A program made the translations under genes and the position numbers. Below the pieces are notes generated by a model that did no database searches, was not told the origin of the DNA, and worked only from the letters and a program-made list of their open reading frames with translations. This document shows positions 17,474 through 37,906 of a DNA stretch of 52,020 nucleotides, one piece after another. Every line of letters starts with the position of its first letter. The first letter of the stretch is position 1. Source of the DNA: an uncultured Lachnospiraceae bacterium (GTDB lineage Bacteria; Bacillota; Clostridia; Lachnospirales; Lachnospiraceae); assembly GCA_947600145.1 (NCBI GenBank), contig CANQGA010000003.1:1-52020 (forward strand), written 5' to 3'.

Positions 17474-17489
17474 GGACCTTAACGGCCAT

Positions 17490-19351: not shown

Positions 19352-19410
19352 CTTCAGCCTCCCTTTTCTGTTGGGTAGTGATTTGTTGGGCAGTGATACC
19401 TGCCTCCTCG

Positions 19411-20514
19411 TCAGTTCCATATGTTTTTCAGGCCCGTCACAGCCGCCCGTCCGATCAGCTCCTGTCCCGCCCGGTTATAATGAATGTCCGTATAGGAGCG
19501 TGTATAGCTTCCCACGTTCTCCGCTGTAATGCCGCTTCCGGAAAGATCCACCAGCCCCAGGTTATTTTCCGCCGCGACCCGGCGGATCACATCATTCAGG
19601 GCCTGGACATCCGCCGTAAAACTCCCGCCGGATGCAGCGGAACCTACAAAAGGATAAGTGAACAGCGTGATGCTGGCATTTGGATAGCGTGTCTTCATAG
19701 CCGCCGCCATCTGCCCATATTCGCTCTGAATGACTGAAAAGTCTTTGCCGGCAAACATGTCGTTCACTCCCATCAGGACAAAGATATCATCCGGCGTTCT
19801 GGCTGCGGTATGCAGAGCCGTACATCTGACCAGACCGGAATCTCCGGCCCCCTGCCGGGAATCCAGATTGATGCCTGTGGCGCTAACGCTGTTGTTGACC
19901 AGAATATTCATGTCGTAAGTCTTCGCGGCTGCAAACCACCACTTCGTCAGAGCCGTATAGGCGTCCCGGTCGTTATCGTCGCTTCTCCAGGCATCAGACG
20001 CCGAAAAGCTGTCTCCCAGGATCGAAAGATAGCGGCCGCTGTGAGACGTTTCCGCCGGCACTGCTCCAGGAATATGCAGATTCAGCAGATCGACCTCACT
20101 GGTATATACATTAAATCCGATCTCGCTCGTTCCTGCCGGAACAGGAATTTCATAAGTCCCTTTTTCGTAGACGCTTTTCGACAGGGGAATATTGGAGCCA
20201 TCGGACGAAGCGGCCCAGACATAATGGGAACCGTCCTTCACGAACGTCACCTCAATGGATGGAACCGGATGAAACTGCTCTGCCGGAACCAGATAATAAT
20301 AGCTCCGACCCGGATCCTCGTCGTTGACTACCTTATGTCCCCAGAGAGACACTGTCTTACCAGCCGTTCCGGATTCCGCCGTAAACACTGCCCTGAAAGC
20401 CGCTCCCACACCGTATATTGCCAAAGCCGCCCCAAAAGACCTTCCCGCCCCGGAAATGGCCAGGACCGCCGCTGTCAGGCAGATCAATTTCTTTTTCCAC
20501 ACCTTTCTCATCAC
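19411..20514 (-). CDS. SGNH/GDSL hydrolase, secreted or membrane-anchored
   Basis: N-terminal hydrophobic segment; LSILGDSFSAS (block I), VLMGVNDMF, DIHYNRAGQEL. Confidence 0.85.
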   Translation of the reverse strand: MMRKVWKKKLICLTAAVLAISGAGRSFGAALAIYGVGAAFRAVFTAESGTAGKTVSLWGHKVVNDEDPGRSYYYLVPAEQFHPVPSIEVTFVKDGSHYVWAASSDGSNIPLSKSVYEKGTYEIPVPAGTSEIGFNVYTSEVDLLNLHIPGAVPAETSHSGRYLSILGDSFSASDAWRSDDNDRDAYTALTKWWFAAAKTYDMNILVNNSVSATGINLDSRQGAGDSGLVRCTALHTAARTPDDIFVLMGVNDMFAGKDFSVIQSEYGQMAAAMKTRYPNASITLFTYPFVGSAASGGSFTADVQALNDVIRRVAAENNLGLVDLSGSGITAENVGSYTRSYTDIHYNRAGQELIGRAAVTGLKNIWN

Positions 20515-20536
20515 GTTTACCTTCCTCTCTTATGAT

Positions 20537-22522
20537 TCACCGAAAAATACCTGATATCTGCCGCTGGTTGACCGCGAACACAGACCTTCTGTCGTTAAAA
20601 AACTTCATGAATCCATCGATCATCTCATGTCCATACAGGCTTCCGTCGCCGTTGACCGCCTTTACATAGGGGACATGGAATAGTTCCTTATTGTTGGTCC
20701 AGGTGAGAAAATAACTGGCTTCGGAATCAGACAGGACATTCAAAACCTTCTCAAACCACTGCTTTTCCGGATTGCCCGAGCGGCCAAGCGCCGTGGCTAT
20801 ATCTCCCTGAGCGGGAACGGTGCGCATGATCCCCGTCTCCGTTACCGCGAAAACTTTTCCGTGCTGTGCGGCAAACTGCTGCGCGGCGGCCACCTCCGCC
20901 GCAAATTTAGAAAACCAGGGGCCGCTGTCCGTCCCCGGATCTTTATAATACATATCAAAGCCTATCACATCCACATAGGCGTCTCCAGGATATCTTTGGT
21001 CATAGACGGCTATGGAAGCGAGGGTGTTATCCCCGTCAGGGCTGTATACATAGATCAGATTGTGAACCTGCTTTGTATCCCGCAGATACTCTACCGTATA
21101 CTGAAACAGCTCCCGATAAGCAGACGCGTCGCAGACAGACGTTCCCCACCAGAACCAGTCTCCCGTTCCTTCATGGAAAGGCCTGAACAGGATCGGACCG
21201 TTCACCTGTTTTGCGTAATCGGCGATCATGTCCAGATAAGCGTTAAATTTACCGTTACAGGCTCCGCCGGGAAGGATCTGACGAACCGCATCACTGCTTC
21301 GGTCTTTGGCGGAAGAAGCCGCGAAATCGTATTTCGCGTAAGAGGGATCCCGCCCCGGTCTGTAACCGGAAGCTTCTGAAACCCGGGTAAAATTAGGCAT
21401 GTGGCAGGAAAGCGTTACCAGAGCCCCTCTGTCTATGGCCGCATTGGCTACCTGGGCGGCCGCCTTCACATTGGCAGCAGCGGTGCCAAGCCTGCTGACA
21501 TCAATGGCAGGCAGCCCGTTCCGCGCGGCGAAACCTCCGTTGTACTGCTCCGCGCTGAATTCCTGTCCGGTCAGGGACAGAGCGTCCATGCCCATGATTC
21601 CCGCATTGGAGCCGGTCATGTCCTCCACATCAGAACCGGTCAGTCCATTCTGGCTGTCAGGAGCCGCTCCGGCCTTGCTCCACAGTTCATCCTGCATTCC
21701 GAATATCACATGATCCGTAGAGCCTAAAGCCCGAAGGTACGCATATGTCCTCACCGCGGCAGCCGTCGCCTGCGGATCGGCCAGGCTCGCCCGGTTTAAA
21801 TCTATCGGCGACTGTCCTCCGCTTTCCGTAACAAGGGTAAGTCCCGAAAGAGACAGAGACGTCCCGTCGCTTCGTCTGACCGTGGAATTAACGGAATAAC
21901 CGTCGCTTACGCTGCCCTGATCATAAGTAAAACAGGGATCCTCAATGGCAATCTCGCCTGCGTAACTGCATCTGCGCCCGACGAAAAGGATCTTGACCTT
22001 CCCCACAGGCTGCTTTACCGCCTGATCAAAGGGAACAGAGCCTTCCCAATGACCGTTTACATTGGCGCCCACCGTGTCGGAAAATGGGATCGACACTGCC
22101 GCACTGCTGTAAAGCTTCCCGCCGATCGTTACGGTTCCTGAAAAATCATCGGAGACAAGCTCAGCCACGGAATTGGATTGGACCCACTCCTGACTGCTCC
22201 CAAGAAGAAGCACCGCCAGCACCTGGATACGGCCGTCAAAGGAAGGCTTCATCCCGCCGGAAGCGGGAAGCAGGACGTTCATAATCAGCGTGATCCCCTG
22301 CCTGGGAGTCTCACTGGTCGTAAGATTCAGATTCCACTCATCATCATCACTGTCCCATGTACTGTCTCTGTTAAAGCCCACCCTGTATGAAGCGGAAATC
22401 TCTCCTTTCGCCGCTTCCACGCTGGTGTTCGGGCAGACCGCCGCCATAAGGAATCCGCCTGCCAGAATTCCACCTGCCAGCCTGCGCAGCCATCTGATTT
22501 TCCTGCCGCTCTTTGTCTCCAT
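20537..22522 (-). CDS. Secreted glycoside hydrolase family 26-like protein (beta-mannanase type)
   Basis: Signal peptide; VIFGMQDELWSK, LVTLSCHMPNF, PILFRPFHEGTGDWFWWG (acid/base), FAVTETGIM (nucleophile). Confidence 0.88.
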   Translation of the reverse strand: METKSGRKIRWLRRLAGGILAGGFLMAAVCPNTSVEAAKGEISASYRVGFNRDSTWDSDDDEWNLNLTTSETPRQGITLIMNVLLPASGGMKPSFDGRIQVLAVLLLGSSQEWVQSNSVAELVSDDFSGTVTIGGKLYSSAAVSIPFSDTVGANVNGHWEGSVPFDQAVKQPVGKVKILFVGRRCSYAGEIAIEDPCFTYDQGSVSDGYSVNSTVRRSDGTSLSLSGLTLVTESGGQSPIDLNRASLADPQATAAAVRTYAYLRALGSTDHVIFGMQDELWSKAGAAPDSQNGLTGSDVEDMTGSNAGIMGMDALSLTGQEFSAEQYNGGFAARNGLPAIDVSRLGTAAANVKAAAQVANAAIDRGALVTLSCHMPNFTRVSEASGYRPGRDPSYAKYDFAASSAKDRSSDAVRQILPGGACNGKFNAYLDMIADYAKQVNGPILFRPFHEGTGDWFWWGTSVCDASAYRELFQYTVEYLRDTKQVHNLIYVYSPDGDNTLASIAVYDQRYPGDAYVDVIGFDMYYKDPGTDSGPWFSKFAAEVAAAQQFAAQHGKVFAVTETGIMRTVPAQGDIATALGRSGNPEKQWFEKVLNVLSDSEASYFLTWTNNKELFHVPYVKAVNGDGSLYGHEMIDGFMKFFNDRRSVFAVNQRQISGIFR

Positions 22523-22567
22523 AGTCTTCTAAACGCCCCTTTCAGATTAATTGTCAGAGAATCATCA

Positions 22568-24085
22568 TTACTGCTTTAACAGAACCTTCCGCACGGTTTT
22601 TCTCATTTCCGCAAACTCCCTCGTTTTCAGGGAAAACAGAAGGAACAAAAGATTTGGAACGACGCAGCAGATCAGCCCGCGCAGTATCAGCTCCCCGGCT
22701 CCGTTTAACGTCACCAGCCCGCAAAACGCTTCCGTTACAAGACACGCCATCACCGTCGCCGCCGTATAGACAAGCAGGCGGATCACATACGGTTTCATGC
22801 TGCAGCAAAACAGCTTGCGATGGATCATCCAGGTCTGCCAGGGATACGTGATCACCAGCAAAGACAGGACCGTCGACAGCAAAACGCCTTCCACACCAAT
22901 CACCTGTACCAGGATCAGATTGGCAATTAAATTAAACAGATTCGCTCCATAGGAACGCCACATATCCTCCCTCCAGAGCCCTGCGGCGTCCTTATATGTA
23001 CTCTGAACGATCTTCAGCTGATATACGTAAAAATATACGCAGAACCAGACGACCATTCTCTTTCCGAACATCAGGCTCTCGCCGGCCCAGAGCCGGATGA
23101 ACGGCTGATACAGACAATACAGACAGACCGTACACCATCCGATCAGCCAGGCGTTGATATAGGACAAGTTCATGTAATCTCTGTAATTCTTCTCCGGCGT
23201 CTCCAACACGATACTATTGCCCACCGTTGACTGAATGGAGTTAAATATGACCGCGATAACCGCGATCAGCGCGTCCATAACATAATAATAGTTATTGTAT
23301 TTCGCCAGCACAACCAGTCCCAGGAAGGAAGAGATCACAACGCTGTCCACGGAATTATAGATAAGCGAGGTGATCTTAACACCCAGCAGGGCCCTTGTCT
23401 TCCTGCCAATCTGTCTTTGCGTCTCCTGATCAACCGCCCCCCTGCATTCATACTGCGGGTAATATCGTTTGGCAAGATAGGCCGTGATCAGGTTCGTGAT
23501 GATCGATATCGCGGGAATCACCAGCACAAAGCAGTAGTAATTACGTATCGTAAGCAATATCACAATCTGGATCAGATTCTTCGCCAGGTTCGTGATCATG
23601 CTGACCACCGACGGGATATCGTTCCGCTGATGAGCCGTCAGAACGGAGGCCCGATAGGCAAAGAAGAAATATGTCGATACCGTATCCAGCAGATAGATCA
23701 AAAAGAGGACACGCACATTGACATCGCTCGGCACGCTGCCCGCAATCAGATGGGGAATGAACGGAAACAGGAGCAGCCCGATTCCCAGGATAACACTTCC
23801 CACAATCCTGTATATCTTCCTGTACAATCCCAGCAGCGCGCAGACCGTTTCTTCATCATTCTCTGCCACCGGTTTATACATACTGTATGTAATTGCCATA
23901 CCGAACCCCAGATCCGCCAGGCTCAAAATCCGCAGCACAGAATTGAACAGACTGTTAAGCCCCAGATATTCAGCCCCCAGCGTATAGATCATGACGGTTC
24001 TGGCAATAAATGAAACCACCAGTGTAGAAAACTTATAGACCAGTCCCCACTTGATGTTTCTGGCCGCATTCCTCGTTCTTCCCAT
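22568..24085 (-). CDS. Polysaccharide flippase (Wzx-like, MATE/PST family)
   Basis: Multi-TM protein; MIYTLGAEYLGLNSLFNSVLRILSLADLGFGMAITYSMYKPVAE. Confidence 0.92.
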   Translation of the reverse strand: MGRTRNAARNIKWGLVYKFSTLVVSFIARTVMIYTLGAEYLGLNSLFNSVLRILSLADLGFGMAITYSMYKPVAENDEETVCALLGLYRKIYRIVGSVILGIGLLLFPFIPHLIAGSVPSDVNVRVLFLIYLLDTVSTYFFFAYRASVLTAHQRNDIPSVVSMITNLAKNLIQIVILLTIRNYYCFVLVIPAISIITNLITAYLAKRYYPQYECRGAVDQETQRQIGRKTRALLGVKITSLIYNSVDSVVISSFLGLVVLAKYNNYYYVMDALIAVIAVIFNSIQSTVGNSIVLETPEKNYRDYMNLSYINAWLIGWCTVCLYCLYQPFIRLWAGESLMFGKRMVVWFCVYFYVYQLKIVQSTYKDAAGLWREDMWRSYGANLFNLIANLILVQVIGVEGVLLSTVLSLLVITYPWQTWMIHRKLFCCSMKPYVIRLLVYTAATVMACLVTEAFCGLVTLNGAGELILRGLICCVVPNLLFLLFSLKTREFAEMRKTVRKVLLKQ

Positions 24086-24106
24086 AGTTTTTGTTTCCCC
24101 GATCTC

Positions 24107-25315
24107 TTATTTCCTCTGTCCCCTGATCTTATCTAAAAGCAGATCAGCAAGATAGGCGTCTCCGTGTCCGTCCTCTTCAAGTCCGATCCGGACGCAGAAC
24201 TCCTCACATTTCTCCGCATAATCCTTATAGGAAAACCGCGTGACGGCTTCCTCCAGGCGTTCCTCAGAGGTATTAAACGTAAAGGGAAGCTCCTCCTGCG
24301 TAAAATAAAGCCCTCTGTCCCGGCTGCTGTACTCATCCAGGTCCGGCATATAGGAAAACACCGGTTTTTTGACAAAAACCATGTCAAAGACACAGTCGGA
24401 ATAATCCGAGATCAGAACGTCCGCCGCGGCCAGAAGTTCCTGCACATCCGGATACATGGTTGCGTTTTTCACATCACTGCTGTAGAAAAGAGCACCGGCT
24501 TTCTCCGCAACGGTCGGATGCAAGCGCATCAGCATCACAAAATCCGCTTTTTTCTCCTGCCCCATTGACTTAAAGTAATGTTCGTTCAGCGCCGTCAGGA
24601 TGCGGTGATAATCAAAGCGATAAACCGATATATCCCGATCCACACGGAATGTAGGCGCATAAAGAAGGATCTGTTTCCCCTGTGGGATCGAAAAGAACTC
24701 CCGCACTTTTCTGTCTGCTTCTTCTCTTCCATGATACAATACCGAACATCGGGGAACACTGCATTTTAACACAGGCCCATGATAATAATATGTATTTTGG
24801 TAGTTTCTTCTTCGGAAATCATTGTCCGAATACATTAAATCCGTGATCGAAGCGTCGTACTGCGAGGCTTTCAGGTAGGAAGCGGGAAGGACTTTTTCCG
24901 CGTCCCCTTCGTTCCGCTTAAACCCTACGATGGAATGCCAGGTCTGCAGATAGAACTGTCCTTTTCGTTTGCGCGGCTTATATGCCGTTTTTACGTTATC
25001 GACCCAAACTCCGGCTGTAGACAGTTCATACAGGGCGGCAAGAGAGCCGTAGGGAACCTTCCTCACCCAGGTTGGAATGCTCTCCGCCTCTTCCGATTTC
25101 CCGCCTCCCTTAATGAGCCAGACCAGATCCAGGCTTTCATCCTTCCTATGCAGCGCTTCGCAGATATATTTCGGATCATCTCCGTAACCTCTTCCGTGAA
25201 AATTTTCAAATACGATCTTATTTTCCCGAATCGGAAATAATCGGAAGATGACGGCAATTCTCCCCCTCAGGGCCAGGCGGGTCCGTAGCTGTCGGATTCT
25301 CTCTTTTACGTTCAT
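24107..25315 (-). CDS. CDP-glycerol glycerophosphotransferase family protein
   Basis: FENFHGRGYGDDPKYICEAL, YLQTWHSIVGFKR, ILLYAPTFR, DVLISDYSDCVFDMVFVKKPVFSYMPD. Confidence 0.93.
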   Translation of the reverse strand: MNVKERIRQLRTRLALRGRIAVIFRLFPIRENKIVFENFHGRGYGDDPKYICEALHRKDESLDLVWLIKGGGKSEEAESIPTWVRKVPYGSLAALYELSTAGVWVDNVKTAYKPRKRKGQFYLQTWHSIVGFKRNEGDAEKVLPASYLKASQYDASITDLMYSDNDFRRRNYQNTYYYHGPVLKCSVPRCSVLYHGREEADRKVREFFSIPQGKQILLYAPTFRVDRDISVYRFDYHRILTALNEHYFKSMGQEKKADFVMLMRLHPTVAEKAGALFYSSDVKNATMYPDVQELLAAADVLISDYSDCVFDMVFVKKPVFSYMPDLDEYSSRDRGLYFTQEELPFTFNTSEERLEEAVTRFSYKDYAEKCEEFCVRIGLEEDGHGDAYLADLLLDKIRGQRK

Positions 25316-26409
25316 TGTCTTTCCCTCCTGTTCCTTTGATGCCCATTCCTTTGATGGAAAAACCGCTGTACCTTATCCATAACCAGCGGTACTTTCAATA
25401 ACAAGGCCAAAGCTAAAATTCGACAGGTCTGTCTCTTTTCAAGCGCCCGCCAGATCTCCCGATATAAAAACGGAAGTTTCATCCTGCTGACATCGACGCC
25501 TCCCATGCACCGCGCGAGATCCTGGTTCTTATAACACGCTTCTACGTTCTTTCGCCCTCTGCCTGTAAGGACGCTCCGAGTACCGCCGGTACATTCCTTG
25601 ATTCCCACCGAGACCGACCATACCTTATGGTATTTTAACTGTTCCTGTAAACCCTCCCGTTTTTTATTCGCGAAGCACACATCCAGATTATCGTACAGAT
25701 TCCGGTATTTCCGAAAATAATCCTGCTCAAAAACTTTCGTCATGGATTCCAGACGTTTCCGATAATGATAAAAGCACTGGCTTTTATAAATCTCCACGCA
25801 TTTTGCGTCCAATATACAGGCGTACGTACAGACCATGTCTTCTCCTAACGACACATTCTCATTCACCGCAGCTAGATTCGGAATCAGTATATCCCGACGA
25901 AACCACTTGTTCCAGACATTCGGCCAAACCCCCGGCTGATAAAACTTTCCGGCATAAATCATATGATCACGCAGCTTTTCCAGATTCTTCCCGCGGTAAA
26001 TTCCTTCCGGAACAGCAGCCGTATGCCTTATGGGATATCCTCCGTCATAAAAATAATCTGTAGTCAGAACGTCGGCATTATTTTTCCGAATTCGCTCCAT
26101 CATAGCCTGATACATATCGCTGTCAATCCAGTCGTCGCCGTCAACAAACGTAATATATTGGCCGCTACTAAGCTTTACGCCCGCTTTTCTTGCGCTTACC
26201 AGTCCCCCGTTTGATTTATGAATCACCTTAACACGGGCATCCATTTCGGCATAATGATCGCAGATCGCCGGGCAGCCGTCGGGAGAACCGTCGTCCACCA
26301 GGATGATCTCCATATCCTGAAAGGTCTGCTCCAGAATACTCTCCACGCATTGGCGCAGATAAGGTTCCACCTTATAAACAGGTACGACAACGCTTAAAAA
26401 GGGATTCAT
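25312..26409 (-). CDS. Glycosyltransferase family 2 protein
   Basis: MNPFLSVVVPVYKVEPYLRQCVESILEQTFQDMEIILVDDGSPDGCP, FVDGDDWIDSDMY; ATGA overlap with upstream gene. Confidence 0.94.
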   Translation of the reverse strand: MNPFLSVVVPVYKVEPYLRQCVESILEQTFQDMEIILVDDGSPDGCPAICDHYAEMDARVKVIHKSNGGLVSARKAGVKLSSGQYITFVDGDDWIDSDMYQAMMERIRKNNADVLTTDYFYDGGYPIRHTAAVPEGIYRGKNLEKLRDHMIYAGKFYQPGVWPNVWNKWFRRDILIPNLAAVNENVSLGEDMVCTYACILDAKCVEIYKSQCFYHYRKRLESMTKVFEQDYFRKYRNLYDNLDVCFANKKREGLQEQLKYHKVWSVSVGIKECTGGTRSVLTGRGRKNVEACYKNQDLARCMGGVDVSRMKLPFLYREIWRALEKRQTCRILALALLLKVPLVMDKVQRFFHQRNGHQRNRRERQ

Positions 26410-27392
26410 ACGTCTTTTCCTTTCTTTTTCACAGCGGGGAGGAGCGATATCGCCAGGCAGCCGGCCACAGCCGCCAGGAACACGTCCCACCCATAATAGG
26501 CAAATTCTCTGAAACACAGAGTATACAAAAACACAAACATCATATGCAGGTAATAATTGATCTTACTGGCCCTGTCAAGAAACTTCCAGACCGGCGACGG
26601 CTTCAAAACTACAGCCAGCGCCAGACTGACAATCCCCGCCGTCGCCAGAACCGTCATAAAGTCCGACCACAGGGGGATCCGCAGAGTTCCCGCCAGGAAA
26701 GCCGTCACAGCAACGGCAGCGGCAGCCCTTGCAGATACTGCGGCCTTCCTTCTGGCAAGCCACCCTCCCAGAACCAGATACAATGGCGCCGCAAACATCC
26801 GACCCGATTCGAAGGTGCGCACAATCCCGGTGCGGATCAGGGAAACTGCCGGCAGGCTGGAGGGAGCATCCACGATCTCCGACATGGTCACGCCCATAAG
26901 AAACAAAACTGTGGCCGCCAGAAAGATCGCCCTTGCGGACCTGCCCCGCCGGATCAGAAGGTACAAAATGGCCCCGCCGTAAAACACTGCCAGAAGGTAC
27001 CATAAATGCCAGGAATAAAAGTGGGACCCTCCCAGCACCGTCCCCTGAACCAGCAGGTACAGATCGACCAGAACCCCCTTGCCGTCCGTAAAATATCCGT
27101 AAAAGGTGCACGGCAGGTATACAGCTGTCCACAGAAGATACAGGCGCAGGGCCCGCAGTGCGTACCGCTTCACCCGAAGCGCAAGCTCCTTTCTGCCCTC
27201 CCCTCTCTCCCGAAACAGAAAGAAACCGGTGCATACAAAAAACGTAGGCACGGAAAGGGAAAACAACATCGCTTCACATCTTAAAAAGAGCGCGTTATCA
27301 ATACGTTCAAAGGGACGCGTATGCTGCGCGATCACCACGATCGACATGATCCACTTTAAGAGATCAAGACTGTAATACCGCTTCACCTCCAT
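26406..27392 (-). CDS. Acyltransferase family 3 protein
   Basis: MEVKRYYSLDLLKWIMSIVVIAQHTRP, multi-TM. Confidence 0.88.
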   Translation of the reverse strand: MEVKRYYSLDLLKWIMSIVVIAQHTRPFERIDNALFLRCEAMLFSLSVPTFFVCTGFFLFRERGEGRKELALRVKRYALRALRLYLLWTAVYLPCTFYGYFTDGKGVLVDLYLLVQGTVLGGSHFYSWHLWYLLAVFYGGAILYLLIRRGRSARAIFLAATVLFLMGVTMSEIVDAPSSLPAVSLIRTGIVRTFESGRMFAAPLYLVLGGWLARRKAAVSARAAAAVAVTAFLAGTLRIPLWSDFMTVLATAGIVSLALAVVLKPSPVWKFLDRASKINYYLHMMFVFLYTLCFREFAYYGWDVFLAAVAGCLAISLLPAVKKKGKDV

Positions 27393-27403
27393 CGCCGTCC
27401 TCC

Positions 27404-28573
27404 TTACAATGCCTGATCACACGATCTCACCCCGAATCCAGGCTTTGTCTCCCTGCCCCGCAGGATCCGGTCTATGATCTCCAGATAGCGGTCCGCGGAT
27501 TTCTCCACGGAAAAATCGAGGCTCCTGCGTACCAGCTTTTCCCTGTCCGGCTCCCGGGATACCGCTTCCTTTATCCCCTCAGCCAGGGCGCGGCTGTCGC
27601 CTGTCGGAACCAATGTGCCGTAAACACCGTCGCCCAGGATCTCCCTGGGCCCCGAAGGACAGTCCACGCTCACAATGGCACTTCCGCAGGCCATGGCCTC
27701 AATGAGAACCGTGGGAAGCCCTTCAAATCTGGAACTCAGCGCCACACAGTCTGCCGCCGCGAAATAGGCGTAGGGATTTTTCACATATCCCCTGAAATCC
27801 ACCCACTCCTCAATCTGCAGATGTCTGGACAGCTGACGCAGCTCTTCCTCCAGTTCCCCGATCCCCAGAAGGATCAGCCGCCAGTCTCCCTCCGCGCGAA
27901 GCCGCCGCAGAGCCTGGAACATCAGCTGGTGGTTTTTCTGGTAAGATAACCGTCCTGCCAGCACCAGGGTCTTCCACTGTCTGGACGGCGCCAGCCATGG
28001 ATGCCCCGTCTCCTCCCCGGCCATCCGGAAGATCTCGTCAGACACGACCGGATTATATGCTGTAAAAACATGGTTCTCATCCGCTCTGCAGAGACGAATA
28101 TAATCCTCTCGGACCGCCTCCGACACGGCGATTACCCCATCCATGCTTTTGTCCATAAGAGGGAAAAGCCGGCTGCGGATCCTCTGAAAGCTGTGCTTCT
28201 CCTGCGACAGGGTATTATGGATGACCGCCACAACCGGCATCCGGCCGGGATTCAGCCATGACGCGACCATGGCCACCTGACTCATCTCCGCCGTTACGCA
28301 AAGAAGAACGTCAAATTTTCTTTTCGTCATCAGCCGCCGCAGATAAACGACGTTTTTCAGGTTCTTCCGTATTTTGGAAGTCTCGGACACCTTCATATCC
28401 ATCACAGGGATCCCGTCATCCAGCAGTTGCCGCGTCTCCCCGTAATCGTACCTGACGCAGAACGCAACCTTATGTCCCCGGCGGTGAAGCTCATTGGCTA
28501 ACAGCACCGTCATTTTTTCAGCTCCGCCGCCGTCAAAGCGATGCATGAAAATGCAGATCCTCTTTACAGCCAT
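27404..28573 (-). CDS. Glycosyltransferase family 4 protein
   Basis: FDGGGAEKMTVLLANELHRRGHKV, LVLAGRLSYQKNHQLMFQALRRL, SSRFEGLPTVLIEAMACGSAIVSVDCPSGPREIL. Confidence 0.95.
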   Translation of the reverse strand: MAVKRICIFMHRFDGGGAEKMTVLLANELHRRGHKVAFCVRYDYGETRQLLDDGIPVMDMKVSETSKIRKNLKNVVYLRRLMTKRKFDVLLCVTAEMSQVAMVASWLNPGRMPVVAVIHNTLSQEKHSFQRIRSRLFPLMDKSMDGVIAVSEAVREDYIRLCRADENHVFTAYNPVVSDEIFRMAGEETGHPWLAPSRQWKTLVLAGRLSYQKNHQLMFQALRRLRAEGDWRLILLGIGELEEELRQLSRHLQIEEWVDFRGYVKNPYAYFAAADCVALSSRFEGLPTVLIEAMACGSAIVSVDCPSGPREILGDGVYGTLVPTGDSRALAEGIKEAVSREPDREKLVRRSLDFSVEKSADRYLEIIDRILRGRETKPGFGVRSCDQAL

Positions 28574-29844
28574 GTACTGGTCTCCCTCTCTTTCTCAATC
28601 TGCTCTTCGAAATGATGTCCCATCATCAGCACCGCCATGGGGACGTTCCCATAAAACAGGAAATACATATTTTCGGAGAAAAAGGTAACAAATAAAAATA
28701 CGCTGATCGTAAAAGCAATGATGCCCAGCGTGGTGTCGCGGGACAGAAACAGCCGGACTCTTAGGACAAACATGGCCAAAAGCCACAAAAGATATCCCCA
28801 GAACCCCTGCTCTATAAACTGCCGCAGGAAGTCATTATGAAGATCGCCCAGGATACTGCCCGAAATCCCCAGATCCAGTTCGCCTGTCTGGATCATCTTG
28901 GAAACATATCCCAGGCCCTGTCCCAGATAAAATGGGCTGAACTCGTAAAGAGAGCTGGCGTTCGTATACACAAGGGCCCTTCCCATGGTGTCGACCCCCA
29001 GCAGATCCATCAGCATCTCATAAAACCCCGACTTGATCATCCAAATATAGACAAAGCCGACAAGAACCAGCAATAGTCCCCCCAGGCTGACAAAGATCTT
29101 CCTGACGCCGTCGCGTGCAGCACGCAGAACCACGCCCGCCATCATCGCGGCGATCAGGGCCAGCAAAGCGCTCCGCTTGAATTCTACAACAAAAAACAGA
29201 GCGGCTGCCGCAAGCGCCAGAATATCCCGCCTGCGGCCCTTGTTGAACAGTATAAAATACACGATATACATACCGAAGGCATAGGTATGTCCAGTCATCT
29301 CCATACGCCTCATCATCACGCCTGTATCCATGGCACCGCTGACGATAAGCGTAATAAACTGACTGACAAACTCGCCTGCCCCTCCCCCTTCGAGCATCGC
29401 CGAGACCATCGTAATGCTGCTGCCCAGGACAAGTGCGATCAGATTATACACGATCCCTTTGTCCCCGAACAGATAGAGGGTCGACGCCGCCGTCATAACA
29501 GCCAGTATCTGATAGACGGAAAAGAACGTGCCGCGGATGATCACGTTGGGCGCTGATCGGTCTATTACCCAGACGATCAGCGAAATGAATATGTTAAGGA
29601 GAAACGGCATGCAGATCCACATCACATATTTCATCAGCAGCCACGCCCGCGGCACCCGGGGATCGACAAGAAATGCCAGGAGCGCAATTCCGATGATGCC
29701 CATGCCGAACAGATACATATACATGAACGTAAATCCGCCGATGGTCACGCCGCCAGAACTCCAGTCCAGCGCATTATACATCAGCGCCGCCAGTACCATG
29801 TAAATGGTAAAAAGCGTTCCCTTTTTTATCTTCTCCCAGGTCAT
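28564..29844 (-). CDS. O-antigen polymerase/ligase-like membrane protein (Wzy candidate)
   Basis: Multi-TM protein; LGDLHNDFLRQFIEQGFWGYLLWL, typical Wzy/WaaL-like segment. Confidence 0.8.
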   Translation of the reverse strand: MTWEKIKKGTLFTIYMVLAALMYNALDWSSGGVTIGGFTFMYMYLFGMGIIGIALLAFLVDPRVPRAWLLMKYVMWICMPFLLNIFISLIVWVIDRSAPNVIIRGTFFSVYQILAVMTAASTLYLFGDKGIVYNLIALVLGSSITMVSAMLEGGGAGEFVSQFITLIVSGAMDTGVMMRRMEMTGHTYAFGMYIVYFILFNKGRRRDILALAAAALFFVVEFKRSALLALIAAMMAGVVLRAARDGVRKIFVSLGGLLLVLVGFVYIWMIKSGFYEMLMDLLGVDTMGRALVYTNASSLYEFSPFYLGQGLGYVSKMIQTGELDLGISGSILGDLHNDFLRQFIEQGFWGYLLWLLAMFVLRVRLFLSRDTTLGIIAFTISVFLFVTFFSENMYFLFYGNVPMAVLMMGHHFEEQIEKERETSTWL

Positions 29845-29864: not shown

Positions 29865-31919
29865 TTATCCGGCTTCCTCTATCACCGGCTCTACCTGATC
29901 CAGCGCATGAACCAGAAGCTGCTTGATCCGATAGATACCGGAGGTTCTGGATTCGGCCATCCCGCACTCATACTCAACCTTGCAGTCCGCGGCGGCATTG
30001 TAGCTCTCGGCCTCTTTTTTCAGATACTGCGCGTAATACTCCATCTGCTCCTTCGATATACCCTTTACATAGATGATATACTGTCCCACGCCGTTAAGAG
30101 CAATGAAGCAGTCGTCATTCTTCGGATAAACCTCCTTGACCATGCTGTTAAACTTCAGCATCATCTTATCCATCGCTTCCCTGCCGTAAACGACGTTCTT
30201 CTCCTGGATCCGAACGAGCCTGAGAACGACGCACCCGAAATCGTCGGGAAGTATACGTTCGGCGTAAGTATCCATGTATTTATCACAGCCGGCCCGATTG
30301 GGAAGCTCAAATTTTCTGTCCTGATATACATAGTAATCAACAATATCCCCCAACCGTCCCAGGACGACAGCAGCCGCGCAGAACATGCACAGGAAAATGA
30401 CGACTACCATGGCCGCGTACAAAAGGACCCTCTGATTGGCAATTACAATAATATTGCTGAGCAGACTGATATTGGCGGATCCGCAAAAAGCATTGTACTC
30501 CTTATTTACTTCCATCATGATCTCGTACAGACGATTGGTTTTCTCCACCAGCTCGGAGATCATGGCATCTGCCGTATCCAGAACCTCCTGAGAAGGTGCC
30601 GCATAAGCAACGGTTACAGCCGGACGCGCCTCCGCAGCCGTTTCTCCCGCGCCTTCTGCGGGAGCCTCTGCCACTTCTTCGCTTTCGGCAGGAACCGCTG
30701 TCTCTTCTTCGTCTTCCGCAGGGGCCGCTGTCTTTTCTTCGCCTTCCGCAGGGGCCGCTGTTTCTTCTTCGCCTTCAGCCGAAGCCTCTGCTTCTTCGAT
30801 CCCCTGTATGTTCAGAGCGGTCCCGATATCTGCGCCGTCTCTGTAGATCCCGAGTATGTACTCGCAATAGGCCACCTCAATAAGCGCCCACTCATAGTCT
30901 TCCTGATCCTCGATATAATTCTTCATCAGGACATCGTATTCGACCGTCTGATCGATCCGCTTCTGGTTTTGGTCCCCTCCGTCCCTTGCATCATGAACGT
31001 CGTCCAGAATATACTCATAGGTAATGTCGGTATTTCCGGACTCTCTCATCATCTCCACATAAGAATCGATCACCCGTTCGATCGCGGCAATCTTAGTCCT
31101 GCTGGCGTTATTGTCCAGCCCATAATCCTCTATTCGGTTCTCATACTTGGCAATCAGGGCGTCCCTGTTTTTCGTCACCCTGTTGCTCAGAATATAGGCA
31201 TAAATGTTGGACAGCTCCACATCCTTCAAATAAGAGAATTCCCGATACAGATCCATGAAGGAATAACCGTTCGCCGCCGCGCGGAACGTATTATTCTCAC
31301 TAAAGCCTTCGCTGGTGCTCGCCATGACGCCGTCCAGAGATTTCTCCAGGATCTCCGCCATTTCCAGATAATCGTAATTTCTTTCATTCAGGCCTGAAAT
31401 ATCGTTTGCCGCCATCAGGTTGTTAATATGCTTCTCCCCATAATTCTCAATATAAATATTCAGAAGATTATCCAGTATCTGCCGTGCAAAAGCCTGCGGA
31501 TTATCGGAATCCGACTGACGGGCCGTAAAAGAGACATAATATCTTGTAGGCTGGGAGGTAGACTGCTCGCCGGTAGCATTCACCGCTTCCTGGATCGCCT
31601 TATCCTCATCCGTCACGATCCCCGTTACCGTTACCCGGGAACGCAGCTCATCCAGGTTATACTCGTTGTAATCCAGCCCCATCTCTTCAAAAACACGGGT
31701 CATAGCCTGAGAAGAATAAATCTCCGACACATCGATCTCGCTTCCGTCCGGCGCGTAGCCCTCGGCCGCGCGGTTATTCGTATAACTGATTACCGCGGAC
31801 GCCGTGTAAGTCTGGTTCGACTGCATATACAGAAAGAAAACCAGTCCGGCCAAAAGAGACAAAACGACGATCGGTATTTGATACTTCTTAATATATTCTA
31901 AAATACGAAATCTTTTCAT
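29865..31919 (-). CDS. Wzz-like chain-length determinant with C-terminal degenerate GGDEF-like domain
   Basis: N-terminal TM, coiled extracellular region, second TM (VLLYAAMVVVIFLCMFCAAAVVL), then LPNRAGCDKYMD...VLRLVRIQEKNVVYGREAMDKMMLKFNSMVKEVYPKNDDCFIALNGVGQYIIYVKG. Confidence 0.75.
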   Translation of the reverse strand: MKRFRILEYIKKYQIPIVVLSLLAGLVFFLYMQSNQTYTASAVISYTNNRAAEGYAPDGSEIDVSEIYSSQAMTRVFEEMGLDYNEYNLDELRSRVTVTGIVTDEDKAIQEAVNATGEQSTSQPTRYYVSFTARQSDSDNPQAFARQILDNLLNIYIENYGEKHINNLMAANDISGLNERNYDYLEMAEILEKSLDGVMASTSEGFSENNTFRAAANGYSFMDLYREFSYLKDVELSNIYAYILSNRVTKNRDALIAKYENRIEDYGLDNNASRTKIAAIERVIDSYVEMMRESGNTDITYEYILDDVHDARDGGDQNQKRIDQTVEYDVLMKNYIEDQEDYEWALIEVAYCEYILGIYRDGADIGTALNIQGIEEAEASAEGEEETAAPAEGEEKTAAPAEDEEETAVPAESEEVAEAPAEGAGETAAEARPAVTVAYAAPSQEVLDTADAMISELVEKTNRLYEIMMEVNKEYNAFCGSANISLLSNIIVIANQRVLLYAAMVVVIFLCMFCAAAVVLGRLGDIVDYYVYQDRKFELPNRAGCDKYMDTYAERILPDDFGCVVLRLVRIQEKNVVYGREAMDKMMLKFNSMVKEVYPKNDDCFIALNGVGQYIIYVKGISKEQMEYYAQYLKKEAESYNAAADCKVEYECGMAESRTSGIYRIKQLLVHALDQVEPVIEEAG
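30661..30800. repeat. 30-bp in-frame tandem repeat inside the Wzz-like gene (about 4.7 units)
   Basis: Units start at 30661, 30691, 30721, 30751 and 30781 (partial); encode E-x-E-E-x-A-A-P-A-E type decapeptides. Confidence 0.95.
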
Positions 31920-33394
31920 CTTCTGTTTTCCTCCACCGCTTCCCCTTCTCTGTTCCCTTTGTCTTCTTTCGCGTGTTTCCTTTTTCTGTTTTTCTTCCGC
32001 GCAGTGCCTCCATAGGCTTCCGCCACGTAGGAAGCGGAATCATTTCTTCCCTTCAGCGCTATGATCAGTATGCATAACGCTACGGCGAAAATAACCGCGT
32101 GTATGACGGCGCTCCTGATCTCAGCCCCGGTACTGACCGCGCGGCCGGAAACAACGCTCACATAATCATTGGTCGTCTTCCTGTCATAATCCGCCAGCGT
32201 GTCCTCGAGAAGCTTTGCGAAAACCTGATACTCGCTTTTCAGAGATTCCAGCATCTCTTCTGCCTGCGCGGCCTGCGCGCTTACATCGCCGGCGGCCTGC
32301 ATCTGCGTGATGGCGTAATCATTAGACTGCATATTCCGCTGCCGTTTAGCGGCGGACTGCATGGACTCCTCCGCGTTCTCAGCAAAATAATCGACGCCTA
32401 TCTTTGTTCTGGACATATAAAACTCCCCGTCCAGATCCTCGCTGGGAATCAGTACGATCGTGGCCATATCCCTGTCATATCGGTCAATGGCAGCCAGATT
32501 GATATTGTGGGTCGCGATATCCTTCAGATACGCCTTGTGGGTGATCGTATTATCATAGTTCAGTTTTGCCACGTACTGATCGGCGTTTTTGGCAAGGCCG
32601 TTCGAGAGAATAAACGCCCGAAAGCCTTCCAGCTGTACGTCCCGGAAGGTCTTGACCTTCTCTGTAATAGAATCAAATGTTTCTCCCGTCGTCACAGACT
32701 GAAAAGCGGCAGCCTCAGCCGACATCGCGTAAGCATAATCCGAGATATCTTCCGCCTTTCTGTCAAACAGCTCGACGATATCCAGATAATCCATATTGTC
32801 CAATTCGGAAAAATCCATCGTCAGGACGTTCGTCTTTCTGGAATACGAGTTGATAAATTCGCGGCGGTATACCTGGGCCACCGAATCCACCACGTCCGCT
32901 GGCTTTAAGTGCAGCGTATTATTATCTGCCTCATAGGTCAGCTGGTATTCCGTTGACATGTATACCTGATTGGTAGATATGGAATCTCCGGCATTCAGAG
33001 GCGTTACCTGAAAGCAGCGTTTCAGGTCGTCCGCGGTGACATTTTTCAGATTTCCCTCCGTGATCGCTTTTTCCAGAATCTCGTCGGAAAGAAGCTCTGA
33101 AATATTAAATCTCGTTCTGTTCGGATTCAGGCCGCTGGAAGCTTCCGGATAATTAAATCCGATGATCACCGACGCCAGCATCGCTGTCTGCGTCTGTTCT
33201 GTTTTCAGACAGATCACCCCATACGCTCCCGCGGCTATAACGATCAGTATCAGCCACCTCTTCAATGTGCGGATGCCGTTTCTGATCCGTCTGAGAAGAT
33301 TCTCCTCGTGACGCAGAAAAAGGATCAGCGCGCACAGGATTATCACCGCCGGAATAGCCGCCAAAATATACTCGAAATATCGAATGTTCTCCAT
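31916..33394 (-). CDS. Second Wzz-like chain-length determinant, no GGDEF-like domain, basic cytoplasmic tail
   Basis: Two TM segments bracketing an extracellular helical domain; tail RKKNRKRKHAKEDKGNREGE; ATGA coupling with the next gene. Confidence 0.7.
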   Translation of the reverse strand: MENIRYFEYILAAIPAVIILCALILFLRHEENLLRRIRNGIRTLKRWLILIVIAAGAYGVICLKTEQTQTAMLASVIIGFNYPEASSGLNPNRTRFNISELLSDEILEKAITEGNLKNVTADDLKRCFQVTPLNAGDSISTNQVYMSTEYQLTYEADNNTLHLKPADVVDSVAQVYRREFINSYSRKTNVLTMDFSELDNMDYLDIVELFDRKAEDISDYAYAMSAEAAAFQSVTTGETFDSITEKVKTFRDVQLEGFRAFILSNGLAKNADQYVAKLNYDNTITHKAYLKDIATHNINLAAIDRYDRDMATIVLIPSEDLDGEFYMSRTKIGVDYFAENAEESMQSAAKRQRNMQSNDYAITQMQAAGDVSAQAAQAEEMLESLKSEYQVFAKLLEDTLADYDRKTTNDYVSVVSGRAVSTGAEIRSAVIHAVIFAVALCILIIALKGRNDSASYVAEAYGGTARKKNRKRKHAKEDKGNREGEAVEENRR

Positions 33395-33413: not shown

Positions 33414-34310
33414 CTATGAACGGCTGATATCTATTACAACAAGCTCCGGCCTGTTGTTGATCCGCGGCAAATGCCCATGACCGCCCAGCCCTCTGCTCAC
33501 GATCAGAATCCCATGCGCCAGGGAAAATTCGCCGTAACAATACTTCGGGAAAAAGCCTTCATCCACATGAAACAGGCCTCTTCCGTCGGGAAGCCGTATC
33601 TGGCCCCCGTGAAAATGTCCCGCGACGCCCAGATCAAAATCCACATCCGCCAGACAGTCGTAATAAAGAGCCGGAAAATGCGTGAGCAGAAGCTTAAAGC
33701 CTTCCTTTTTCTCAAAGGCGGATACGGCATCCCCGGCGACCTCTTCATAATCGTCCGTCTCGGCCGTCACTCCCATGATCTCAAAAGGATTTCCCTTTAT
33801 CGTGGCGCTTACGGAGTTATTATACAGAACTGTCACGCCCTTCTCCCAGAGCGCCGCGTCCAAAGCTACCCGGTGGCTGCCGCCCGCATACTCCAGGGTT
33901 CCCTCATTGTTGCCGAATACGTAATAAACCGGCGCCATTTTGAGAAGCTTTCCGCACAGATCCGTTGCGATCGTTATGTTCGGGTCATCTCCGTTGACCA
34001 TGTCTCCGGCCATTACGATCAGGTCCGGCTCCAGCTGTTCGATCTTTTCCACCAGCTCGCGGTTGGCCCGCCCGAATTCATGGTTATGCAGATCTGCCAG
34101 CAGGACGATCCGAACCGGCTCCTGGATCTTGCCGGAAGTCACCTGGTAAAAGGTCGTCTCCAGGGTATCGTCGTCCGAACATATCCATATAACGATTCCG
34201 AAGGTCAGAACCGCCGCCGCTAAAACCAGAATTACCGAAAGGCAGCCTCCAAAGCGCCGTTTTCTTCTTTTCTCAATTCCATATTTCCCGTCCATCACAT
34301 TCGTTCCCAT
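33414..34310 (-). CDS. Membrane-anchored calcineurin-like metallophosphoesterase
   Basis: VLLADLHNHEFGRAN, DLIVMAGDMVNGDD, YVFGNNEG, LLLTHFPALY, GVAGHFHGGQIRLP. Confidence 0.93.
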   Translation of the reverse strand: MGTNVMDGKYGIEKRRKRRFGGCLSVILVLAAAVLTFGIVIWICSDDDTLETTFYQVTSGKIQEPVRIVLLADLHNHEFGRANRELVEKIEQLEPDLIVMAGDMVNGDDPNITIATDLCGKLLKMAPVYYVFGNNEGTLEYAGGSHRVALDAALWEKGVTVLYNNSVSATIKGNPFEIMGVTAETDDYEEVAGDAVSAFEKKEGFKLLLTHFPALYYDCLADVDFDLGVAGHFHGGQIRLPDGRGLFHVDEGFFPKYCYGEFSLAHGILIVSRGLGGHGHLPRINNRPELVVIDISRS

Positions 34311-34355: not shown

Positions 34356-35771
34356 CTAAAACTGCGCATAGATAAATGCGCTGTCTCCTATATACGCGAA
34401 CACCGTCGTCAGCAGGATAAAGCAGCAAAGTATCACGCGGCTGCCAAATCTGCTTAAGTCAAGAGGGCGCCAGATATCATTTCCCCGATTATAACGGACG
34501 GCGGCCAGCTCCGTTAGCAAAAGACCCATTCCAAAAATAACGGCATATACATATACATAATAGATTCCCGGGGCCCATGTGAAGATCCGCCGCAGGATCA
34601 GAATCGTCTTCCCGAAATCATTGGCCCTGAAAGGGATCCAGAGAACCGCAACCACACAAAAATTAAGGAACACGGAAAATACATGGCGCGCCTTCCCCCA
34701 CGCCGCTGAGGCTGTTTTCTTTCCCTTCCGTTTTCTCTGAAACACCCTGCTGACAGCCGAAACTGCACCGTGAAGTGCTCCCCACACCACGAAGGACCAA
34801 CTGGCCCCATGCCAGAGGCCGCTTAAAAGCATGGTCAGGAACAGATTCCGATAAGTCCTTGCTTCCCCTTTTCGGTTTCCGCCCAGGGGAATGTAGACAT
34901 AATCGCGAAACCAGCCGGACAGACTGATATGCCACCTTCTCCAAAACTCAGAAGGGTTTGCCGCCAGATAGGGCAGATTAAAGTTTCTCCCCAGATCAAA
35001 ACCGAGGATACGGGCAGCGCCGATCGCCATATCCGAATATCCTGCAAAGTCATAATAGATCTGAAGGGCGTAGGCGAGCACTGCCGTCAGGAGACTGATA
35101 CCGCTGTAAGCGCTCGGAGCGGCGTAAACCGTATCCACGCAGACGCCGAGTCTGTCCGCGACCACCATTTTCTTAAAAAGGCCCATCAGAAACCTCTGTC
35201 CTCCCCAGGACAGGTTCTCCCACGTGAGTTCATGGTCCGTCTCAAGCTGCGGAAAAAAATCGCGGGCCTTTACAATGGGACCTGACACGATCTGCGGGAA
35301 AAATCCGATATACAAAAGCACCTTGCGCAGGGAAGCCTCCGCCTTCATTTTCCCCATATAAACATCGGCCAGATAGCTTATGGCCTGAAAGCTGTAAAAT
35401 GACAGGCCGAGCGGCAGCAGAAGCCCCATCGTCGCCCGGGGAAGCCCAAAGGCTGCGGTAAACGTATCCACGAAAAAATCCGCATATTTGAATATGCCAA
35501 GCACCAGCAGGTCCAGGCAGATTCCCAGGGTCAGCCACATTTTTTTCTTCTTCCCGTTCGCGCCGGACTTCTGGCCGATCTCTAAACCGCACTTCCACAT
35601 AGCGAGGGAAATGCCCGCAAGAAGCGCCAAAAACCTCCAGTCGCCGGCGGCATAGAAAACATAACTGGCTCCCAGCAGGACCAGCTGATGAGTTTTGGCC
35701 CCTCTGGTCAGCTTCATGACCAGAAGAAGGATCAGAAAAAATATCCCGAATCTGACTGACAGAAAACTCAC
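34356..35771 (-). CDS. MBOAT family O-acyltransferase (AlgI/DltB-like)
   Basis: LPLGLSFYSFQAISYLADVYMGK, DFAGYSDMAIGAARILGFDLGRNFNLPYLAANPSEFWRRWHISLSGWFRDYVYIPLGGNRKG, LSGLWHGASW. Confidence 0.97.
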   Translation of the reverse strand: MSFLSVRFGIFFLILLLVMKLTRGAKTHQLVLLGASYVFYAAGDWRFLALLAGISLAMWKCGLEIGQKSGANGKKKKMWLTLGICLDLLVLGIFKYADFFVDTFTAAFGLPRATMGLLLPLGLSFYSFQAISYLADVYMGKMKAEASLRKVLLYIGFFPQIVSGPIVKARDFFPQLETDHELTWENLSWGGQRFLMGLFKKMVVADRLGVCVDTVYAAPSAYSGISLLTAVLAYALQIYYDFAGYSDMAIGAARILGFDLGRNFNLPYLAANPSEFWRRWHISLSGWFRDYVYIPLGGNRKGEARTYRNLFLTMLLSGLWHGASWSFVVWGALHGAVSAVSRVFQRKRKGKKTASAAWGKARHVFSVFLNFCVVAVLWIPFRANDFGKTILILRRIFTWAPGIYYVYVYAVIFGMGLLLTELAAVRYNRGNDIWRPLDLSRFGSRVILCCFILLTTVFAYIGDSAFIYAQF

Positions 35772-36778
35772 TGCCCGTTCCTCCCGACTAGTATTTTATA
35801 CAGTTCCTCCGCCATAACACGATGTCCGGCCTCACTGAAATGACCTTTTCCCATCGCCGAATTCATAAAACCGTAAGGGACCGAATAATCCTCCGCGTAT
35901 GCGTCCAGGATCGCCTGGGTGGCGTCCATAAATATGATCCCGTTCTCCCTGCACAGCCTGACAAACACTTCCGTCTCCTCATAACGATCCGGGCTGAGAG
36001 AACCGTCCTCACAAATGGTCACGTCCGGATGATACGCGATGATCAGCGTTCCGCCAAATTCTTCCCGCAGCATTTTAAGGACCTGCTCCAATCGGTCGGA
36101 ATAAGACTCCTCGGCGTCTCCTTCCGCTAGTTCCTCTTCCTCGGACTGTTTCTTTTTCACGGTCTCCGCCTGCCTTTTCAGAATATTCAGAAGCGGCAGC
36201 GCCTCTTTTACCCTCATGGTAAACCGCTTGACCGGAGAAAGCGTCTCCAGTATATTCTCACCGTTCTGGCTTTCATCATATCCTCTCTGGTTCAGCGCTT
36301 CCTCCAGCTCCTCATCGGAAAAAGAGGTTTTGCCGGTCTCGATCACGATCGTCCCTGCATCCGGAAATTCCCCTGTCACAGCCTGAAAGCCGGCGGCAAT
36401 ATCCGGAAAATAATAACCTTCCTGAGACACATTGTATACAAATGACGGGGACAGCATATCATTCAAAAGATCCGTATATCTCTTTCCGTTTTCTACTTCC
36501 TTTCCCTGGGTAAAGGACGCCCCGACAACGACGCAGTATCCTGGCCCGTCCGGAAGACAATCGTTTAGATATCCCTTGCTGTCGACACGATAATGGCCGC
36601 GTCCCTCCATTCCCGCAACCAGCACCGCGCCTGGATCCCAGATGGCCAGCGTCGCGCCGCCTTCCCGATCGATCCATCCGGGCTGGACCTCATACAAAAA
36701 CATAGCCGCATTACATATGCAGAATGCCGTTATAAACGCCGCGACCCATGAAACAGCCTGCCTGACCCATTTTCCCAT
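35768..36778 (-). CDS. SGNH-like/AlgJ-type accessory protein paired with the MBOAT
   Basis: N-terminal TM; YCVVVGASFTQGKEV block I; GHFSEAGHRVMAEEL; 4-nt overlap with the MBOAT gene. Confidence 0.7.
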   Translation of the reverse strand: MGKWVRQAVSWVAAFITAFCICNAAMFLYEVQPGWIDREGGATLAIWDPGAVLVAGMEGRGHYRVDSKGYLNDCLPDGPGYCVVVGASFTQGKEVENGKRYTDLLNDMLSPSFVYNVSQEGYYFPDIAAGFQAVTGEFPDAGTIVIETGKTSFSDEELEEALNQRGYDESQNGENILETLSPVKRFTMRVKEALPLLNILKRQAETVKKKQSEEEELAEGDAEESYSDRLEQVLKMLREEFGGTLIIAYHPDVTICEDGSLSPDRYEETEVFVRLCRENGIIFMDATQAILDAYAEDYSVPYGFMNSAMGKGHFSEAGHRVMAEELYKILVGRNGQ

Positions 36779-36796
36779 AGAGTTCTATTCCTTCCG

Positions 36797-37906
36797 TTAA
36801 TAAACGTTAAAAAGCCTTTTCATAACGATTCCCATGATCCGTATGCGGTTCGCCAGCCGCAGGATCAGGAGCGGAACGGCAAAGCTCAGCACAACACAGA
36901 TCCCATATGCCGCGATCATCGGCCATCCCAGGCCATTATACAGAACCGTTCCAACAAAAGCGCAACAGAAGGGCTGATGAAGCAAATAAATAACATAAGA
37001 TTTTTTCCCTGCATACACCAGCCAGGAAAGATGTCCCTCCAAATGGACTGCCGCCCGCAGGAAGCTGACGCTCACCCCGAATCTGGCGGCCGCAACCAAT
37101 GTATACCTGACCCATCCAAAGAAACCGCTGTCTCCGATGCCCAGGTTAAAGGCAGCGTTCGCAGCTTCCACTGCCAGTATCGCCCAGGACGCCAGGCAGC
37201 AGAGTCTGACAAGAGGAGCCTTCCCGTAAAGGATATTCCTGTGAGAAAGCAGTACCGCGCCGCACACAAAATAAATAAGGTAACCTGTCAGATAAACCCC
37301 CAAAGCCGGCATATGAATCTCATGAAAATCCGCGTAGCCAAGATACCAGCACAGGGCGGCGGAAACAGGCAGCAGGATCCTCCAGTCGACCGAAAGCCTT
37401 TCGCTTATCGCCTGCCACCAGAATATTCCCAGTGAAAACAGGAATAGCATCCAGATATACCAGAGATGCTGCGCATATGGATTCTCCGCCAGAAACGTCC
37501 TGATCAGATAATCCTTCACTCCGCACGGCGCGTAAGAAGAGCCTTCCAGGATCCGGCTGAAAGCCGGAATCTGGTAAGCAGTCATAAAGCATGCGTATAT
37601 TACCAGACTGTAGACCAGAAGCGGAATCAGAAGAGTCCTGACGCGTCCGGCCGTATATCGGGCTTTCTCTGACAGATGCCGGCTGCCTGAGACAGAATAG
37701 GTAAGACCGGATATCGTCCAGAAAACCGGCATATGAAACAGGTAGATCAGCCTGTATATGTATTCACAGACCATGCTTGACGCCCTCATCTCATCCCGAA
37801 AGGCGTGGCCCAGAACCACAAAAACGATTCCGATCCCCTTTGCCAGGTCTATCCATTCAAAATACTGTTTCGTATCGGTCTTTCCCATCTTCATCCAACC
37901 CCGCAC
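36797..37906 (-). CDS. Acyltransferase family 3 protein
   Basis: YFEWIDLAKGIGIVFVVLGHAFRDEM, multi-TM. Confidence 0.9.
   Translation of the reverse strand: MRGWMKMGKTDTKQYFEWIDLAKGIGIVFVVLGHAFRDEMRASSMVCEYIYRLIYLFHMPVFWTISGLTYSVSGSRHLSEKARYTAGRVRTLLIPLLVYSLVIYACFMTAYQIPAFSRILEGSSYAPCGVKDYLIRTFLAENPYAQHLWYIWMLFLFSLGIFWWQAISERLSVDWRILLPVSAALCWYLGYADFHEIHMPALGVYLTGYLIYFVCGAVLLSHRNILYGKAPLVRLCCLASWAILAVEAANAAFNLGIGDSGFFGWVRYTLVAAARFGVSVSFLRAAVHLEGHLSWLVYAGKKSYVIYLLHQPFCCAFVGTVLYNGLGWPMIAAYGICVVLSFAVPLLILRLANRIRIMGIVMKRLFNVY

Follow-up and report, generated by a model that had tools for sequence, protein, structure and literature searches.

A 52,020-nucleotide stretch of DNA from an uncultured Lachnospiraceae bacterium, referred to here as the window, features a gene (29865..31919, minus strand) that encodes a two-helix transmembrane (TM) co-polymerase of the PCP/Wzz-like type with a degenerate GGDEF domain on its cytoplasmic side. 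This 684 aa protein is called WzzB-GGDEF, and it raises the question of what a GGDEF domain does in a polysaccharide chain-length regulator. Bis-(3'-5')-cyclic dimeric guanosine monophosphate (c-di-GMP) is the messenger that enzymes with GGDEF domains make and EAL domains degrade. Together with related nucleotides it controls synthase-dependent polysaccharides post-translationally, the examples being the PilZ domain of BcsA, Alg44, and PelD.

The Wzz-like protein and its gene cluster

TM helix 1 of WzzB-GGDEF (residues ~14-34, 31818..31880, minus strand) was assigned from the sequence and from helix H14-34 of the AlphaFold2 model. It is followed by the extracytoplasmic Wzz-like region (residues ~35-496, 30432..31817, minus strand), which was assigned from the model and from hhalign comparison with domainless Wzz relatives, and which is modelled as a mixed alpha/beta part followed by long helices with a pLDDT of mostly 70-90. 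Alignment and model both show a low-complexity (EEETAAPAEGE)n insert at residues ~378-440 (30600..30788, minus strand) that is missing in most homologs and is unstructured (pLDDT < 50 at residues 367-436). The repeat is in-frame and extracytoplasmic, and its length is probably variable; a close relative, L046, is 720 aa long. TM helix 2 and a cytoplasmic signalling helix (residues 498-532, 30324..30428, minus strand) form a single unbroken helix, H498-532, in the AlphaFold2 model, and G521, R522, and D525 of the signalling helix are invariant in the full-length alignment of homologs. The degenerate GGDEF domain, located by AlphaFold2, Foldseek, and Pfam searches of the family, makes up residues 530-684 (29868..30332, minus strand). 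The strand opposite the Wzz gene features an open frame of 496 codons (29907-31397, plus strand), which is probably a by-product of composition. Another Wzz-GGDEF protein of 880 aa (L177:7978-10617, plus strand) features a low-complexity tail of ~250 residues beyond the GGDEF domain.

Both the sequence and the AlphaFold2 secondary structure place two TM helices on either side of a large extracytoplasmic region. WzzB-GGDEF has no match to the Pfam Wzz family (PF02706) over the cut-off; one of nine proteins in the N-terminal set matches at E 0.55, and the other members score 17-18 bits against a cut-off of 25.5. Alignment of the WzzB family to classical Wzz by hhalign gave a probability of 86% (E 4.7e-6), and full-length alignment to the domainless Wzz relatives gave a probability of 100 (E 7e-51). 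Five of eight of these domainless relatives match PF02706, one of them over the cut-off at 30.9 bits. No classical Wzz was found elsewhere in the genome by PF02706. When the N-terminal half was searched as a profile against the PDB sequences, no meaningful match emerged, and in a Foldseek search with the full-length model the 50 rows listed were matches to the GGDEF domain. By these comparisons WzzB-GGDEF is a distant Wzz-type co-polymerase that lies outside Pfam Wzz by score. We infer a co-polymerase activity, and the protein likely works like a Wzz.

The window contains a complete Wzx/Wzy cluster, in which WzzB-GGDEF is encoded beside Wzy and Wzx. The adjoining genes encode WzzA (31916..33394, minus strand), a 492 aa partner and paralog of WzzB that has no C-terminal domain, a membrane-anchored calcineurin-like metallophosphoesterase (33414..34310, minus strand; PF00149, 4e-13), and a Wzy-type polymerase of the O-antigen ligase/polymerase family (28564..29844, minus strand; PF04932, 2e-10). 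The rest of the cluster (16070..28573, strand unassigned) encodes a priming sugar transferase, GT4, WecG/TagA, SGNH, GH26, a flippase, a CDP-glycerol transferase, GT2, an acyltransferase, and GT4. MBOAT, SGNH, and acyltransferase genes for polymer modification adjoin the module at 34356..37906 (minus strand), and a DUF3990 domain following a helix-turn-helix region is encoded near the cluster at 39647-40507. In gut Clostridia the module phosphoesterase - WzzA - WzzB-GGDEF - Wzy shows strong conservation: of 52 homologous loci, 49 have Wzy, 49 have WzzA, and 43 have the phosphoesterase, generally arranged as in the module and with Wzy beside WzzB in most, and several of the misses fall at contig ends. 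The Wzz pair is almost always accompanied by the phosphoesterase, which also adjoins EAL-bearing and many domainless pairs and may act on a lipid-linked intermediate.

A first-pass annotation of this DNA had described the cluster as having no BY-kinase and had proposed that nucleotide sensing may replace phosphorylation as the control of polymer length. The cluster does lack a BY-kinase, and none was found over the TIGR01007 cut-off in the genome assembly, which is 94% complete (best score 61 against 108 bits), or near any Wzz-GGDEF locus. Within about 8 kb of the domainless relatives a BY-kinase is likewise missing, and the sole pair that adjoins BY-kinases, in genome G301 (L130), is itself domainless. 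Because the domainless relatives share the absence, it characterizes the family at large and does not show the GGDEF domain to be a substitute. A loss of the BY-kinase tied to the gain of the domain is not supported, and the case for the GGDEF domain as a kinase replacement is weak.

Fold and former active site of the GGDEF domain

The GGDEF fold that had been proposed for the region after TM2 is confirmed for residues 530-684, which carry the motifs named in the first-pass annotation where it had placed them. Structure prediction of residues ~530-684, which the annotation had named as a check, returned this fold with a pLDDT of 93.1 and a pTM of 0.88 (domain alignment of 52 sequences). The best 50 matches that Foldseek listed from the PDB consist entirely of proteins with a GGDEF domain (best E 8e-10), with 3mtk, SadC, WspR, and FimX at the top. 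Homologs were collected from 299 genomes of the family, from contigs of named organisms (49 loci), from the order, and from the class. When each homologous domain was searched alone, 51 of 52 matched PF00990 at E<0.1, the best at 9.8e-16, and a search with the family alignment across the order retrieves GGDEF-type proteins. The window protein's own domain is not matched in a Pfam search. NCBIfam gives sub-threshold scores to LapD (15.7 bits against a cut-off of 1020) and DgcS (14.3 bits), and the PDB sequences give a weak match to the 3mtk diguanylate cyclase (E=0.12). These weak scores reflect divergence, because the relatives score well above chance and confirm the homology. Chance resemblance to GGDEF was rejected on the AlphaFold2 fold, the PF00990 matches in 51/52, and the Foldseek matches.

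The domain had been predicted to be catalytically dead, and the alignment of 66 homologs agrees with this in that the metal site has lost its Asp and the signature its D/E-E. The motif VLRLVRIQ lies where the first-pass annotation had placed it and features R567 (30219..30221, minus strand), which aligns with the Asp that binds metal in PleD (D327). Most homologs have K, Q, or R at this position, and 16/66 have D. The signature had been read as NGVGQ; its coordinates are correct (residues 609-613, 30095-30081), but its register is not, since alignment with G-G-D/E-E-F selects G610-V611-G612-Q613-Y614, giving the degenerate signature GVGQY (residues 610-614, 30078..30092, minus strand). The third letter of GG(D/E)EF (position 370) is G in 60/66 homologs and acidic in 3/66, the catalytic Glu is replaced by Q in 48/66, and the canonical signature is found in 0/66. 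The signature also differs among members, which have NGxGQ or NGNGSF. The phosphate-contacting K332 position is K in 4/66. The guanine-contacting Asn (PleD N335) corresponds to N575 (30195..30197, minus strand) and the guanine-binding Asp (PleD D344) to D584 (30168..30170, minus strand), and each is kept in 65/66. Thus, of the set that makes an active diguanylate cyclase (D327, K332, N335, D344, D/E370, and E371), the N335 and D344 equivalents alone are kept, and by sequence the domain is catalytically dead in 66/66 distinct homologs. The near-invariant positions are N541, R542, D546, N575, R580, D584, F590, N609, G610, G612, and L668, of which R580, N609, G610, and G612 fall on former active-site motif positions.

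As a control, 24 dead GGDEF domains that do not belong to the Wzz family were compared; most are found in small proteins with two TM helices from the same bacteria. The N335 position is kept in 24/24 of these domains, and the D344 position is kept in 9/24 and is N in 15/24. The Asn may therefore be kept for structural reasons, and the weight of the argument falls on the Asp; since its position drifts to N in the control domains, the retention of D584 in the Wzz family is not automatic. Judged from these alignments, the former active site shows more than simple decay, with the guanine contacts kept and the metal site lost, and a putative guanine pocket in it is put forward with moderate confidence. 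A family of two-TM proteins of ~230-260 aa with a degenerate GGDEF domain (signature GRNGGN[KE]F) occurs in many Lachnospiraceae-type genomes (loci L010-L023 and L026-L029, also L109-L111 and L120-L122), and these are the closest relatives found of the Wzz-borne domain.

The EAL sister branch and the family tree

A search with the N-terminal part across the class recovered three kinds of C-terminus, namely GGDEF, EAL, and none. The EAL domain takes the place of GGDEF in a sister branch of the WzzB family that consists of 12 proteins (L131:6197-8359, minus strand; L178-L181, L185, L186, L189, L191-L193, and L197), which adjoin the same phosphoesterase. Pfam EAL was confirmed in the five proteins checked, with scores of 108 to 203 bits. 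Alignment by eye shows that the EAL domain is degenerate in 10/12; the usual letters of the metal site are kept in L197 and nearly kept in L193. This branch, like the conserved gene order and the retained guanine contacts, had no place in the first-pass annotation. A family tree of the N-terminal part was built from 97 rows by a quick method. All 63 GGDEF rows form one clade (SH-aLRT 100) that has no domainless member inside, all 12 EAL rows form a separate clade (SH-aLRT 89), and domainless rows lie between the two. The support for the EAL clade is moderate and its branches are long. Because the GGDEF and EAL rows fall in separate clades, the simplest reading of the tree is two separate fusions, in which domains of the c-di-GMP type would have joined this co-polymerase family twice, GGDEF once and EAL once.

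Possible roles of the domain

The role that we favour, at a little less than an even chance, is that of a non-catalytic regulatory domain that controls the polymer, either by binding a guanine nucleotide (GTP, GDP, or (p)ppGpp being the likeliest) in the former active site or by nucleotide-driven re-pairing. WzzB-GGDEF would be a co-polymerase subunit of the Wzx/Wzy polysaccharide assembly system and, outside the membrane, would act with its paralog WzzA in the manner of other two-TM chain-length regulators. The TM2 helix is predicted to run unbroken into the dead GGDEF domain, which no longer makes c-di-GMP but would bind a guanine nucleotide in its former active site or alter its pairing with neighbours in response to one. 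The change would then reach the oligomer by way of the TM2 helix and so affect polymer length or output, a direction of signalling that we infer. The GGDEF fold, the loss of the metal site with the N335 and D344 positions each kept in 65/66, the drift of the D344 position in the control domains, the near-invariant residues at active-site motifs, the retention of a domain of single origin across a clade of 63, the EAL domain at the same place in the sister clade, the unbroken helix from TM2, and the canonical GGDEF and HD-GYP-like proteins of the genome count for a sensor. The Asn kept in the control domains, the loss of K332, and the variable signature count against it.

The same observations bear on a protein-interaction or oligomerisation module that binds no nucleotide and whose partners could be the domain itself, the WzzA tail, a glycosyltransferase, or the real cyclases of the cell, a role that we consider a serious possibility although not the expected outcome. 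For the GGDEF domains of E. coli, two-hybrid experiments show pairing between dead and active copies without catalysis (PMC5635695). In the WzzB family both the metal site and the phosphate-contacting Lys are gone, and the guanine-pair Asn is kept in all dead relatives, so that the pocket residues may be structural. However, the D344 equivalent is kept in 65/66 despite its drift in dead relatives, the invariant positions cluster at active-site motifs, and EAL, a c-di-GMP-binding fold, was placed at the same site in the sister branch. That the domain is a functionless relic under loss is hardly credible; every copy is catalytically dead, but the domain, with its invariant residues, is present in all members of a deep clade of 63 with no domainless member, and a clade full of truncations was not seen in the sample.

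The first-pass annotation had proposed a c-di-GMP receptor, with KNDD as an RxxD-type I-site like that of PelD, and this is very improbable. The precedent is the dead GGDEF domain of Bacillus cereus PelD, which binds c-di-GMP through RxxD (PMC7112168), and KNDD does lie close to the expected place. However, in the canonical site the R precedes the first G of the signature by nine residues and the D by six. WzzB has N601 and C604 at these positions, and K600 and D603 of KNDD are thus one residue out of register. A survey of the homologs found the motif not to be conserved, an outcome that the annotation had named as counting against its proposal: RxxD is present in 0/66, and any [RK]xxD in the I-site stretch in 5/66, three of which are the window protein and its two closest relatives. 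Binding of c-di-GMP by other means, either between two domains or in a pocket as the EAL relatives suggest, is unlikely. The near-canonical EAL domains of L193 and L197 and the c-di-GMP machinery of the genome speak for it, but the GGDEF and EAL fusions lie in separate clades and their ligand need not be shared. The genome encodes canonical GGDEF and HD-GYP-like proteins. Two loci of the assembly, L032 and L033 (G000 contigs C32 and C8), combine by eye a receiver, an HD-GYP-like domain, and a canonical GGDEF domain in one chain, and the same assembly features a GGDEF-EAL protein (L034/L214) and an AraC-type GGDEF frame (L035). No PilZ protein was found in the genome, which is neutral for c-di-GMP binding.

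The guanine-nucleotide sensor favoured here can be compared with several characterized systems. The pairs of a Wzz protein and a separate BY-kinase, such as CpsC/CpsD and YveK/YveL, also feature two TM helices around an extracytoplasmic region and are encoded beside Wzy and Wzx. In contrast to this type, the WzzB family is twice as long with a C-terminal GGDEF or EAL domain, occurs as a WzzA/WzzB tandem with a phosphoesterase and no BY-kinase, and scores below the Pfam Wzz cut-off. PelD, which the first-pass annotation had named as a degenerate-GGDEF receptor that is not a Wzz, is the nearest functional precedent. Like WzzB-GGDEF, it sits in the membrane, belongs to a polysaccharide system, and has a dead GGDEF domain in the cytoplasm. 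However, its system is synthase-dependent, and it features a GAF domain as well as a functional RxxD I-site (PMC7112168), whereas the system here is Wzy-dependent and WzzB has neither GAF domain nor I-site. The degenerate GGDEF domain of Caulobacter CC3396 (PdeA) binds GTP and serves as a nucleotide sensor (PMC7288161). The WzzB family shares with it a dead GGDEF domain and has kept the guanine-contact positions, in 65/66 each, but CC3396 acts on an EAL phosphodiesterase that is part of its own chain, and the output of WzzB would be the co-polymerase. LapD, the best NCBIfam match of the WzzB domain, signals across the membrane through dead GGDEF and EAL domains. It differs in combining HAMP, GGDEF, and EAL domains and in controlling a protease, and it is not a co-polymerase.

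A 2025 review of capsule chain length discusses c-di-GMP only for synthase-dependent systems and mentions no GGDEF domain (PMC12220298). No description of a Wzz-GGDEF or Wzz-EAL fusion was found in the open-access literature searched, and papers that contain both Wzz and GGDEF or EAL terms meant different proteins where checked. On this limited evidence, a known scaffold and a known domain occur here in a combination that was not found described. We propose tentatively, as a possibility that falls short of an expectation, that Wzy-dependent assembly in a family of gut Clostridia may be controlled directly by second-messenger domains inside the chain-length regulator, which would have been gained twice, as a dead GGDEF and as an EAL domain, and that the GGDEF domain may sense guanine nucleotides through its metal-free active site in place of tyrosine phosphorylation. 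If this is true, second-messenger control would act at the chain-length step of the Wzy pathway, and it would concern gut bacteria that do not have the usual tyrosine kinase in the cluster. This suggests that capsule or slime assembly in these bacteria may be wired directly to nucleotide signals.
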